DNA from: a virus | Length of the DNA stretch: 64,000 bases | Virus record (IMG/VR): IMGVR_UViG_3300024308_000023 | Span: 51,142-115,141 of that record | Strand: one strand, 5' to 3' | Shown here: piece by piece, positions 4,882-21,638 of the stretch | Layout: every line of letters begins with the position of its first letter | How positions within the stretch are numbered: the stretch's first letter is position 1 | The notes under the pieces: generated by a model | Databases searched by the model: none | Seen by the model: only the letters and a program-made list of their open reading frames with translations | Told to the model about the DNA's origin: nothing | Translations under genes and position numbers: made by a program

Positions 4882-5707
4882 TACCGTTGACGTGGACACA
4901 GCAGAGGAGCTTATTGCTTACTGTGCCCGCGTCAGCAATCCTGCAAACCAAAACAACAAGAAAACAGCTGCTAAGCTGATTAAATACCTCATTGAAAATG
5001 AGCACTGGTCTCCACTAGAAATGGTGTCAATGACCATTGAGATCAATACAACTAGAGATATTGCTAGGCAGATTCTTCGCCACCGTAGCTTTAGTTTCCA
5101 GGAGTTTAGTCAGCGTTACGCCGAAGTAGTAGACTTCTCGTCCCCGCGAGAAGCACGTCTACAGGACAAGAAGAACAGACAGAACTCTATTGAGCATGAC
5201 AATGACGACCTAACTGAGTGGTGGAATAACTCTCAGCAAGTAACTATGGACCTAGCTGCAGGAACTTATAAAGCCGCGCTAGCGGAGGGCATTGCTAAGG
5301 AGCAGGCTCGTGCTGTTCTTCCTGAGGGGCTTACTAACTCCACTCTATACATGGCCGGTACTCTGCGTAGCTGGATCCACTATTGTCAACTTCGTATGGC
5401 TAATGGCACTCAGAAAGAGCACGCTGAAATAGCTAACCTTTGCTGGGCTATTATCTCTGAGCACTTCCCAGCTATCTCCGGTATTTTCCAGAAGGATCCT
5501 ATTGACCTTCTGATTGAAAAGTTCTCGGAAGCACTAGAGGCCAAGCTGCGCGCTAGTGAAGATAAATACGAATGGAACGATGGGTTTCAGAATCCTCATT
5601 GGGAGGAGTCACTTCGTACAGAACTTCGTAAACATGTAAGCAAAGGCGATCCGCTAGACGTTGCGGCTTATTGTGCTTTTGCTCATTACCACGGATGGAA
5701 GATATAA
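4841..5707 (+). CDS. thyX: flavin-dependent thymidylate synthase ThyX
   Basis: 288 aa with a TTG start preceded by a GGAG ribosome site. It makes dTMP from dUMP using methylene-tetrahydrofolate, FAD and NADPH. The ThyX signature is RHRSFSFQEFSQRY, close to the family RHRxxSxNxxSxRY. CARVSNP near the N-terminus and LPEGLTNSTLYM also fit. With the class II ribonucleotide reductase further right, it supplies dNTPs for phage DNA. The gene ends TAATG into the next small gene. Confidence 0.95.
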   Translation: MAHCRLVALSKPYDTVDVDTAEELIAYCARVSNPANQNNKKTAAKLIKYLIENEHWSPLEMVSMTIEINTTRDIARQILRHRSFSFQEFSQRYAEVVDFSSPREARLQDKKNRQNSIEHDNDDLTEWWNNSQQVTMDLAAGTYKAALAEGIAKEQARAVLPEGLTNSTLYMAGTLRSWIHYCQLRMANGTQKEHAEIANLCWAIISEHFPAISGIFQKDPIDLLIEKFSEALEAKLRASEDKYEWNDGFQNPHWEESLRTELRKHVSKGDPLDVAAYCAFAHYHGWKI

Positions 5708-13176: not shown

Positions 13177-13282
13177 AGAATTGTAACAGCAAACAAAACT
13201 AGAAGGTTCGATTCCTTCGCTCCTCTCCATATTATGAGGAGCTGGCCTGGCGGCCCCGCGCGAGCGGATCCTCAACAATTCT
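13177..13282 (+). ncRNA. Y-RNA-like RNA 1 with permuted tRNA-like domain
   Basis: AGAATTGT (13177-13184) pairs with ACAATTCT (13275-13282). ACAGCAA lies at 13186-13192, in the bulge next to that helix. The inside reads T arm first (GAAGG-TTCGATT-CCTTC), then acceptor 3' strand GCTCCTC, TCCA, TATTAT, acceptor 5' strand GAGGAGC, D-like hairpin GGCC-TGGC-GGCC, and a CCGC-GCGA-GCGG hairpin in place of an anticodon arm. This order matches a circularly permuted tRNA mimic, as described for bacterial YrlA-type Y RNAs. Confidence 0.7.
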
Positions 13283-13290: not shown

Positions 13291-13305
13291 AAAAGCAACA
13301 ATTTT

Positions 13306-19604: not shown

Positions 19605-19667
19605 CCATGTGATGTAACGGGTTCAATCCCCGACCGATCTGAGATCGAGTAAGCCTATCACATTAAT
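19605..19667 (+). ncRNA. small RNA with T-arm-like hairpin inside a closing helix
   Basis: CCATGTGAT (19605-19613) pairs with ATCACAT (19657-19663). Inside, ACGGG-TTCAATC-CCCGA is a perfect tRNA T arm, followed by hairpin CGATC-TGA-GATCG where an acceptor would be. There is no D or anticodon arm. It looks like a minimal permuted tRNA mimic or remnant. Confidence 0.45.
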
Positions 19668-20185: not shown

Positions 20186-20650
20186 ATGTGGGAAGAGGCT
20201 AAAGAGGAAGTACGGAATTCCAGCAAAGACTCTAGCGTCTACATTGGCTGTGACTCCATCAGGTTTAAGAAGAACGACGAGTGGTACGCTCGTTACGCTA
20301 CTGTAGTTGTAGTTCACCGCGATAGTCGTCATGGCTGCCGTATTTTCTACGACATTCAGATTTTGCGTGACTACGGGCAAGGTGCTCAAGGTCTTAAAAA
20401 TAGGTTGCTAATGGAGACGAATTACGCTCTTGAAGCAGCTACACAAATTACCGAAGTTCTTGGAGATCGTCCACTTGAGATTCACTTGGATCTTAATAAC
20501 GACCCTAAGCACAAGTCCAACGTCGCGGTAAGCGAAGCCGTTGGCTGGGTCCTAGGAATGGGCTTCAAGCCCGTTATCAAGCCCCACGGCTGGGCAGCCT
20601 CTCATGCTGCTGACCACTGTGTTAGGTTCAAGTCCTTCGCTACAGGTTAA
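20186..20650 (+). CDS. RNase H-like YkuK/DUF458 family protein (154 aa)
   Basis: ATG at 20186 after AAGGAG. VYIGCDSIRF, YATVVVVHRDSRHGCRIFYD, LEIHLDLNND and a C-terminal HAADHCVR follow the order of conserved acidic and basic residues in the YkuK (DUF458) family, which has an RNase H fold. The three acidic sites (D in GCDS, D/E in HLDLN, D in ADH) could form a nuclease centre. It directly precedes tRNA-Arg, so RNA processing is an attractive but unproven role. Confidence 0.72.
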   Translation: MWEEAKEEVRNSSKDSSVYIGCDSIRFKKNDEWYARYATVVVVHRDSRHGCRIFYDIQILRDYGQGAQGLKNRLLMETNYALEAATQITEVLGDRPLEIHLDLNNDPKHKSNVAVSEAVGWVLGMGFKPVIKPHGWAASHAADHCVRFKSFATG

Positions 20651-20651
20651 T

Positions 20652-20732
20652 GCTTCTGTAAACCCTCTCGCTACGAACGAGTTGAAAGGTTAATTGGATC
20701 ACATGCAGGTTCGAGTCCTGTCAGGAGCTCCA
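20652..20732 (+). tRNA. tRNA-Arg (ACG) without a normal D arm
   Basis: Acceptor GCTTCTG/CAGGAGC, T, CCA; T arm GCAGG-TTCGAGT-CCTGT; anticodon stem CTCG/CGAG with loop CTACGAA, anticodon ACG. Only TAAACCC separates acceptor and anticodon stem, while 20 or more bases (TGAAAGGTTAATTGGATCACAT, split here as TGAAAGG and TTAATTGGATCACAT) follow the anticodon arm. TA-ACC pairs with GGTTA. The same layout occurs in tRNA-Arg at 21560. Confidence 0.75.
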
Positions 20733-20739
20733 GATGTTC

Positions 20740-20839
20740 GGCGTGTTAAAGGTGTAGGTTCGAATCCTACCTGGTGCGATGTAAATGCAATCCAGTGTTG
20801 AAACGGTAGACATCCTCTGCAAGAGGCCTTTAATACGCT
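20740..20839 (+). ncRNA. circularly permuted tRNA-Cys-like RNA
   Basis: GGCGTGTTAAAGG (20740-20752) pairs with CCTTTAATACGCT (20827-20839), 13 bp with two G-U. The inside, in order: T arm GTAGG-TTCGAAT-CCTAC, CTGGTGC, loop GATGTAAAT, GCAATCCAG (CTGG/CCAG plus two pairs), a D-like arm TGT-TGAAACGGTAG-ACA, then CCT-CTGCAAG-AGG with GCA (Cys) in the anticodon position. The break point is in the variable region. No CCA is encoded. Confidence 0.6.
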
Positions 20840-20851
20840 GTTCTTATACTA

Positions 20852-20989
20852 AGATTGCTAACAGCACTTTTTTATTGGAATAATCAAACGGTTGTCGAAA
20901 GACTTGCAGGTTCGAGTCCTGCCCCTTGCACCACTTATGCTGGGGTGGCGAAATTGGTAAACGCGACTGTCCAAACCCAATGGCAATCT
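20852..20989 (+). ncRNA. Y-RNA-like permuted tRNA RNA, distant from the Ro gene
   Basis: AGATTGC (20852-20858) pairs with GCAATCT (20983-20989), and ATTGG (20874-20878) with CCAAT (20977-20981). Between the two 5' strands lies a 15-base bulge with ACAGCAC. Inside: T arm GCAGG-TTCGAGT-CCTGC, acceptor CCCTTGC, A, CCA, CTTAT, acceptor GCTGGGG, D arm GCG-AAATTGGTAAA-CGC. It has the same architecture as elements 1 and 3 near the Ro gene. The permuted halves resemble a leucine-type tRNA. Confidence 0.62.
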
Positions 20990-21002
20990 GTGAATTTATT
21001 TC

Positions 21003-21031
21003 TTGACTTTAATCCCCGTTTTTCGTATATT
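21003..21031 (+). promoter_or_regulatory. sigma70-type promoter
   Basis: TTGACT (21003-21008), 17 bp, TATATT (21026-21031), upstream of the HD-domain gene. Confidence 0.85.
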
Positions 21032-21051
21032 AGTTGAATAAGGAGACAGAT

Positions 21052-21492
21052 ATGAAAAAGGGTGAAATGCTTGGTAAAATGATCCACTTTGCGGTCGATA
21101 AGCATAATGGTCAATTCGATAAAGGCGGTAAGCCTTATATTCTACACTGTCTTGCAGTATTGCATATTCTGAACTCTGACGATGAAGAGCTTCAGTGTAT
21201 TGCTGTCGGTCACGACCTTTTTGAGGATACTGATGCTACGGTAGAGGATTTGGTTGATATTGGAATGACGCCTCGCGTAATTCTTGGTATTACCAATCTC
21301 ACTAAGATGCCGGGCGAGTCTTATAACAGCTATAAGACTAAGGTTCTCGCTAGCAAGGATGCTAGGGAAGTTAAAAAGGCTGACCTCAAGCATAACAGCG
21401 ATATTCGTCGTTTGAAGGGCGTAACGGAAAAGGACTTCAAACGAATGGCTAAGTATATGCTGTTTTATAGCGAGATTGAATCAGTGGTCTAG
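21052..21492 (+). CDS. small HD-domain (p)ppGpp hydrolase-like protein (146 aa)
   Basis: ATG at 21052 after AAGGAGA. FAVDKHNGQFDKGGKPYILHCLAV, then VGHDLFEDTDAT and the ADLKHNSD stretch, follow the HD motif set of SpoT/Mesh1-type small alarmone hydrolases (H-x-GQ...K-GkPYi-H, HD-x-xED, kl-D-x-x-h-N). It should bind a metal and remove pyrophosphate from (p)ppGpp or a related nucleotide. There is no synthetase or regulatory domain. It could blunt the host stringent response. The stop is inside tRNA-Arg. Confidence 0.8.
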   Translation: MKKGEMLGKMIHFAVDKHNGQFDKGGKPYILHCLAVLHILNSDDEELQCIAVGHDLFEDTDATVEDLVDIGMTPRVILGITNLTKMPGESYNSYKTKVLASKDAREVKKADLKHNSDIRRLKGVTEKDFKRMAKYMLFYSEIESVV

Positions 21493-21558
21493 TCGACTGG
21501 ACCGAGATGCGGACTCCTAATCTGCGTTCTGCGGGTTCGACTCCCGCCTAGACTACCA
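21486..21558 (+). tRNA. tRNA-Arg (CCU)
   Basis: Acceptor GGTCTAG/CTAGACT (G1-U72), A, CCA. Anticodon stem GCGGA/TCTGC with loop CTCCTAA, anticodon CCT. T arm GCGGG-TTCGACT-CCCGC. The D region (TCGACTGGACCGAGAT) is near normal length. Confidence 0.87.
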
Positions 21559-21559
21559 T

Positions 21560-21638
21560 GCCTCGGTATGCCGCCTGACTTCTAATCAGGAGAAAGCTAA
21601 TTGGACACATGGGGGTTCGAGTCCCTCCCGGGGCACCA
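21560..21638 (+). tRNA. tRNA-Arg (UCU) without a normal D arm
   Basis: Acceptor GCCTCGG/CCGGGGC, A, CCA; anticodon stem CCTGA/TCAGG with loop CTTCTAA, anticodon TCT; T arm GGGGG-TTCGAGT-CCCTC. Only TATGCCG precedes the anticodon stem, and AGAAAGCTAATTGGACACAT follows it. TA-GC pairs with GC-TA, covarying with TA-ACC/GGTTA in tRNA-Arg (ACG). The GAAAG and AATTGGA blocks are shared by both. Confidence 0.75.

Follow-up and report, generated by a model that had tools for sequence, protein, structure and literature searches.

A circularly permuted tRNA-like element beside Y-like RNAs in a viral genome with a Ro60-like gene

Introduction

What kind of RNA, if any, is specified where the arms of a tRNA follow one another in permuted order inside a long helix? 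The question is raised by positions 20740-20839 of a viral DNA stretch of 64,000 nucleotides (the window), which corresponds to 51142-115141 in a virus record of 115,141 bases. The initial annotation described this element as a permuted tRNA-Cys-like gene. The observation at this site is confirmed. As to its meaning, we give about an even chance to the reading that the element is a small noncoding RNA which mimics a tRNA in circularly permuted form, a diverged relative of the Y-like RNAs without their CAGCA motif.

The tRNA-like arms of YrlA RNAs occur in permuted order, and in permuted tmRNA genes a linker joins the acceptor halves. The primary papers on tRNA mimicry by Y RNAs are reportedly Chen 2014 and Wang 2018. 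In YrlA RNAs, as summarized in one account, the basal stem binds Rsr and a domain resembles the D, T and acceptor arms (PMC8394870). Permuted tmRNA is described as a two-piece product (PMC10085705). A 2014 review counts six algae and one archaeon with permuted tRNA genes, which are joined through a bulge-helix-bulge (PMC3978253). Among viruses, TROVE proteins have been recorded in jumbo phages (PMC7824862), and for a Listeria phage a candidate Rsr is reported along with abundant RNAs, put forward as Y RNAs (PMC12282133).

Sequence and fold of the element

The ends of the element pair over 13 bp, two of them G-U, and over 15 bp if flanking pairs are included. Within this helix follow the T arm, the acceptor-like hairpin, the D-loop-like TGAAACGGTAG and then CCTCTGCAAGAGG (Table 1). 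The helix had been proposed beforehand with the same two G-U pairs, and sequence, shuffles and pair probabilities agree with it. The minimum free energy (MFE) of the element is -33.7 kcal/mol (z -3.5), a stability equalled by none of 200 shuffles; the longer stretch 20725-20885 gives a weaker z of -2.1, with 5 of 200 shuffles as stable. Ensemble probabilities support the closing helix (P 0.72-1.0), the T arm (0.96-0.98) and the acceptor-like hairpin (0.81-0.99) well, and to this extent the fold stands as first drawn. Its other part is weak: the D-like arm reaches only 0.37-0.46, and the CCTCT/AGAGG hairpin reaches 0.42-0.60 and does not appear in the MFE structure.

A scan of both strands of the window gave 49 T-arm-like motifs, of which that of the element has the top-scoring closing helix (13.5, the next being 9.0). 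When the flanks of all 49 were shuffled, a score of 13.5 arose in 0 of 200 rounds and one of at least 12 in 2 of 200. A 13-bp helix exactly at the closing position is beyond chance.

A complete cloverleaf, with a 7-bp acceptor and a 5-bp stem under a 7-nt anticodon loop, is absent from the element. The acceptor-like hairpin has 4+3 bp, interrupted by a bulge of 2 nt. For the ‘anticodon’ hairpin, the best drawing is 5 bp under a GCA triloop, and with the 7-nt loop CUGCAAG only 3 bp are left. Together with the D arm of Leu type, this short stem removes the ground for a tRNA-Cys identity. A recast tRNA-Leu would fit better, as the 13-bp helix occupies the place of the variable arm in a type II tRNA.

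The element lies outside the listed open reading frames of at least 90 amino acids on its own strand; the last one before it stops at 20650, and the next begins at 21034. A promoter and terminator scan of 20600-21060 gave two promoter-like sites, neither of them upstream of the element, and no terminator. Its transcription, as well as its kinship and function, we infer. The element contains no CAGCA, the nearest copy (20862-20866) being part of the next RNA, and neither CAGCA nor CCGCA precedes its T arm within 75 nt.

Table 1. Parts of the element at 20740-20839 and related features of the window
Feature	Position	Strand	Evidence
5′ strand of the 13-bp closing helix, GGCGTGTTAAAGG	20740..20752	+	sequence; pair probabilities 0.72-1.0; shuffle test
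T arm, GTAGG-TTCGAAT-CCTAC	20754..20770	+	perfect 5-bp stem; motif scan, covariance model, pair probabilities
Acceptor-like hairpin, CTGGTGC-[9 nt]-GCA-(AT bulge)-CCAG, linker without CCA	20771..20795	+	folding, pair probabilities
D-like arm, TGT-TGAAACGGTAG-ACA, tRNA-Leu type	20796..20812	+	weak 3-bp stem, P ~0.4; pattern matches
Anticodon-like hairpin, CCTCT-GCA-AGAGG	20814..20826	+	P 0.42-0.60; absent from MFE
3′ strand of the closing helix, CCTTTAATACGCT	20827..20839	+	sequence; pair probabilities
Y-like RNA: closing stem, ACAGCA, T arm, 7-bp acceptor hairpin, CCA in loop	13177..13282	+	z -4.0; R1
Y-like RNA around a whole normal-order tRNA-Lys	13305..13401	+	stem/motif descriptor
Y-like RNA with a complete permuted tRNA including anticodon arm (UCA), and motif	13415..13524	+	R1 62.4 bits; z -3.25
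Ro60-like protein (TROVE-vWA; Pfam DUF2828/DUF7788)	14033..15502	+	Pfam, PHROG, AlphaFold model, structure search
Y-like RNA: stem AGATTGC/GCAATCT, AACAGCA, permuted type II (Leu-like) tRNA, linker CCA	20852..20989	+	R1 51.3 bits

The Ro60-like protein and its Y-like RNAs

As is expected for Y-like RNAs of the Ro type, the genome that harbors the element also encodes a Ro60-like protein. Its family is PHROG 850 (‘RNA-binding protein’). Although phmmer found nothing for it among PDB sequences, the AlphaFold model (mean pLDDT 76) retrieved TROVE/Ro60 structures at all of ranks 1-12 (E 8e-10 to 9e-6), and the structure matches include the Ro60 of Thermus phage phiLo. As judged from this model, the product has the Ro60 fold. 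Of 50,697 phage records, 681 have a relative of this protein, and so do 46 IMG/VR loci; some of those in mycobacteriophages are annotated ‘Ro-like RNA binding protein’.

The Y-like RNAs beside such Ro genes form a family in which a closing stem, followed on the inner side of its 5′ strand by the CAGCA motif, encloses a tRNA-like insert. This insert is a permuted tRNA, a whole tRNA, or an anticodon-arm-like hairpin alone. In the window, which contains 30 tRNAs according to ARAGORN, the RNA at 13415-13524 has the layout of the element plus the motif; its helix closes at the variable-arm position and all of its arms are present in the MFE structure. The RNA at 20852-20989 begins 12 nt downstream of the element. 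Its own MFE is no better than that of shuffles (z -0.3), and a homologue exists in L023 and L047 (68% over 142 nt), two of the loci, which are numbered here with an L. The relative in L023 (~4910-5043) has the stem AGAATGC/GCATTCT where the window has AGATTGC/GCAATCT, which amounts to one compensated pair. The RNAs at 13415-13524 and 20852-20989 are better permuted tRNAs than the element.

The initial annotation had set the element apart from the Y-like RNAs. This contrast is justified for the Ro-type motif, which the element lacks, but not for the architecture: T arm, acceptor hairpin and D arm follow in the same order inside a closing stem, in the same genome. Beyond the motif, the element differs from the CAGCAA-bearing RNAs in that its helix abuts the T arm and its linker is without CCA.

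Two other stems of the window deserve mention. A CAGCA-bearing stem, TGTATTC/GAATACA, occupies 13968-14031, just before the start codon of the Ro gene at 14033, and could allow the Ro-like protein to regulate its own mRNA. At 19608-19665, a 7-bp stem without the motif surrounds a T-arm-like hairpin and a second hairpin; it is no better than shuffles (z 0.2).

A covariance model of the permuted module

The permuted tRNA module was modeled from 13 training sequences, which included the modules at 13440 and 20906 but neither that at 13202 nor the element; the CAGCA motif is no part of this covariance model (R1). With R1, the element scores 34.8 bits (E 2.5e-7), which agrees with the arm order proposed for it from the beginning (T arm, acceptor hairpin, D-like arm, anticodon-like hairpin). 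It ranks third in the window, after 13440 (62.4) and 20906 (51.3) and ahead of 13202 (30.3) and a tandem tRNA junction (24.7). However, ordinary tandem tRNA junctions in other loci also score ~35 bits, so that the closing helix is needed to set the element apart.

Taken together with 45 loci and five named-phage loci, the window yielded 27 matches of at least 44 bits, of which 13 are the training sequences themselves, and some contigs are near duplicates. All 26 strong modules examined carry a motif within 45 nt 5′ of the T arm (CAGCA in 23, CCGCA in 3); this count leaves out L018, whose T-arm region is the same as that of L016, and includes 13440 by virtue of an overlapping CAGCA.

Y-like RNAs in other loci and named phages

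Across the scanned loci, the 7 nt that immediately follow a T arm on its 3′ side had a perfect 7-bp partner in 19 cases, compared with 6 at a score of 6.5, near-identical contigs being included in both counts. Many acceptor linkers of these 7-bp-partner T arms contain CCA. A descriptor combining a helix with CAGCAA found helices of at least 7 at 131 of 411 motifs on the Ro strand versus 58 of 400 on the other, whereas other six-base words gave about 7-19% on either strand; taken alone, this descriptor is noisy and counts near-identical contigs. A stricter form with AGG...CCTG ends produced 86 matches (57 distinct), 85 of them on the + strand of the loci. That run also covered loci without a Ro gene, and one match (L054) comes from a locus without a confirmed one.

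The named phages include Sinorhizobium phage phiM12, where three permuted RNAs have closing-stem scores of 18.5-20.5; motif-bearing permuted RNAs are found in Escherichia phage AYO145A, Mycobacterium phage MiniMac and Cronobacter phage S13. In KVP40, a motif-bearing stem encloses a T arm (L077:589-701), and R1 gives no match above 25 bits. S13 also contains two annotated tRNAs of 121 and 113 nt (L073:8856-9098). Read by eye, these appear to have normal arm order with a short stem and CAGCA in place of the anticodon loop. The pair would then represent the un-permuted Y-like topology, the same object cut elsewhere, with its ends at the acceptor instead of the Ro-type stem.

Whole tRNAs of normal order inside CAGCA-bearing Y-like stems were seen at 13305-13401 of the window and at L003:8823-8921, L006:12370-12470 and L030:4483-4581. 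Short Y-like RNAs with little beyond an anticodon-arm-like hairpin in a Ro-type stem occur at L003:9891-9953, L012:3748-3810 and L030:7355-7418.

Searches for homologues

Neither sequence nor structure searches (the loci, pattern scans of viral contigs and a whole-element model) returned a homologue of the element. A pattern of its T and D arms matched 14 viral contigs, several of them near duplicates. According to ARAGORN, the D arm belongs to an ordinary tRNA-Leu in all 14, and for this reason they were rejected as homologues. In 13, the T arm is that of the tRNA just before this tRNA-Leu; in L072, ARAGORN called none there. Two further pattern scans of viral contigs gave 0 matches each.

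The whole-element covariance model found nothing convincing in 50 sources or 35 records. Its best foreign match in the loci, L006:11660-11756, is weak (19 bits, E 0.17) and is itself a permuted Y-like RNA. One match below 0.01 in the 35 records was discarded, as by eye it sits among ordinary-looking tRNAs. The neighboring genes did not lead further: 0 relatives of the RNase H-like neighbor (20186-20650) were confirmed, and the 8 loci with the HD-domain neighbor contain no copy of the element.

Comparison with known systems

YrlA (Rfam RF02553), the partner of Rsr/Ro60, shares with the element a long stem between the ends (here the predicted 13-bp helix), a module of T, acceptor and D arms in permuted order, for which the R1 score speaks, and a Ro60 gene in the genome. 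The element differs from it by the missing Ro-type motif and by an extra anticodon-like hairpin. The Rfam model of YrlA has no match to 20733-20850 at E values up to 5, and its match to the neighboring RNA at 20852-20989 is sub-threshold (17.5 of 69 bits). Mimicry of tRNA of the YrlA type is thus known, but a motif-free variant with an anticodon-like hairpin was not found in the literature searched, and among the papers listed, titles and starts of abstracts gave no description of a motif-free permuted tRNA-like phage RNA.

In contrast to a permuted tmRNA, the element has no messenger-like part. A permuted tmRNA elsewhere in the window was considered and rejected, since ARAGORN reported none and no Rfam match exceeded the cut-off; the matches below it are one of 16.6 bits on the ordinary T arm 21531-21547 and one of 14.6 bits at 13202-13243. 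In other loci, L012:2085-2142 and L002:6810-6990 look like permuted tmRNA by eye (T arm, acceptor, CCA, linker, GGGG-rich start).

Competing explanations

The even chance that we give to a permuted, tRNA-mimicking relative of the Y-like RNAs rests on several observations. The closing helix is beyond chance, and the element matches R1 without having been used in its training. The RNA at 13415-13524 has the same arm order and closing helix, that at 20852-20989 adjoins the element, and the window encodes a Ro60 fold. Furthermore, the element lies outside the reading frames, long stems are present in the family (phiM12), and L006:11660-11756 offers a weak match. The reading is weakened by the missing C[AC]GCA motif, as against 26 of 26 strong modules, by the lack of a homologue, by the weak D-like and anticodon-like arms, by tandem tRNAs with similar module scores and by the absence of an ARAGORN call on circularized segments.

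Those weak arms and the lack of a homologue could also point to remnants, namely a decayed tRNA array of which the 3′ half of one tRNA and then the 5′ half of a tRNA-Leu survive, the stem being functionless and due to chance or processing. Many tRNAs surround the element, and the pattern contigs show how an ordinary tRNA-Leu (14 of 14) and the tRNA preceding it (13) supply the same two arms. We nevertheless regard this as unlikely, if well worth considering, because the 13-bp helix stands at the exact closing position, the acceptor-like halves pair with each other, and the window contains two clear permuted RNAs. The missing motif could also mean that the RNA acts independently of Ro60, as a decoy whose anticodon-like hairpin soaks up an anticodon nuclease or another host defence that targets tRNAs. 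Retention of the tRNA arms without the motif is in line with this, as are the anticodon arms of other Y-like RNAs, but the hairpin in question is weak and out of the standard 7-nt register, and we judge such a decoy improbable.

A working tRNA is the least credible outcome. RNase P and RNase Z would have to cut the acceptor linker, and the product would be spliced or held in two pieces by the 13-bp helix. The arm order and the short linker between the acceptor halves suit such a permuted tRNA gene, and two-piece products are described for permuted tmRNA genes (PMC10085705). The algal and archaeal genes treated in the 2014 review likewise place the 3′ half before the 5′ half with a linker between (PMC3978253). 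They are, however, joined through a bulge-helix-bulge and splicing (PMC3978253), whereas the element has an uninterrupted helix of 13-15 bp. It also lacks CCA, its acceptor is bulged, and its anticodon stem has 3 bp in register. The tRNA-Cys(gca) noted at 18657 is real (18657-18728, ARAGORN) and normal, which further speaks against this role. Neither a tRNA-splicing endonuclease nor RtcB was found in the 115-kb record, which is possibly a fragment, by searches that did recover their positive controls. An RNA_ligase Pfam match in the same record (19.1 bits) is below the cut-off and lies in an ORF that we take to be a DNA ligase. The permutation-aware scan that had been suggested, ARAGORN on circularized segments, made no call at 20754, and the calls listed are mostly tandem tRNAs. 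Altogether, the designation as a permuted tRNA gene is not sustained and we consider it extremely improbable.

For the phage permuted RNAs as a group, cutting in the acceptor linker might give two-piece tRNAs held by the closing stem. The basis for this idea is that many permuted Ro-phage RNAs have CCA in the linker and some have an anticodon arm. As the stem of the element is at the variable-arm position of type II tRNAs, a two-piece tRNA would need no splicing. We find the idea very improbable; if true, it would mean a bipartite tRNA in a bacterial virus.

We return to the reading as a diverged Y-like relative. In such an RNA, a loop would close the acceptor stem, and the RNA's own ends would form the long stem at the variable-arm position. 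It would most likely descend from a permuted Y-like RNA, or from a tRNA recast likewise, and the Ro-type motif may have been lost or may never have been present. Rather than decode codons, the RNA would bind proteins that recognize tRNAs, such as the Ro60 partner, a nuclease or modification enzymes.

Significance and related observations

Under that reading, the element connects an unusual phage RNA with the Ro60/Y RNA system. Permuted and whole tRNAs in Ro-type stems, with both topologies in Cronobacter phage S13, would offer a direct handle on phage tRNA mimics. Candidate roles for these include recruitment of nucleases to tRNA-like targets, shielding of tRNAs, and a decoy for anticodon nucleases. 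Bipartite phage tRNAs would become testable if CCA-bearing linkers are processed.

Several tRNA genes in these genomes are unusual in other ways. In the window (18547, 19713, 15895), the T loop ATCGTTA replaces TTCRANY in several tRNAs. Genes resembling tRNA-Arg (ACG, TCT) have no D arm in place at 20649-20732 and 21560-21638 of the window and in L084 and L085. Their acceptor, T and anticodon arms and CCA are present, and a D-loop-like AATTGGA..CACAT lies between the anticodon and T arms; they are possibly tRNAs with a displaced D arm. The copy at 20649-20732 resembles unannotated sequence in Streptomyces and Microbacterium phages (~84% identity over 60-80 nt).
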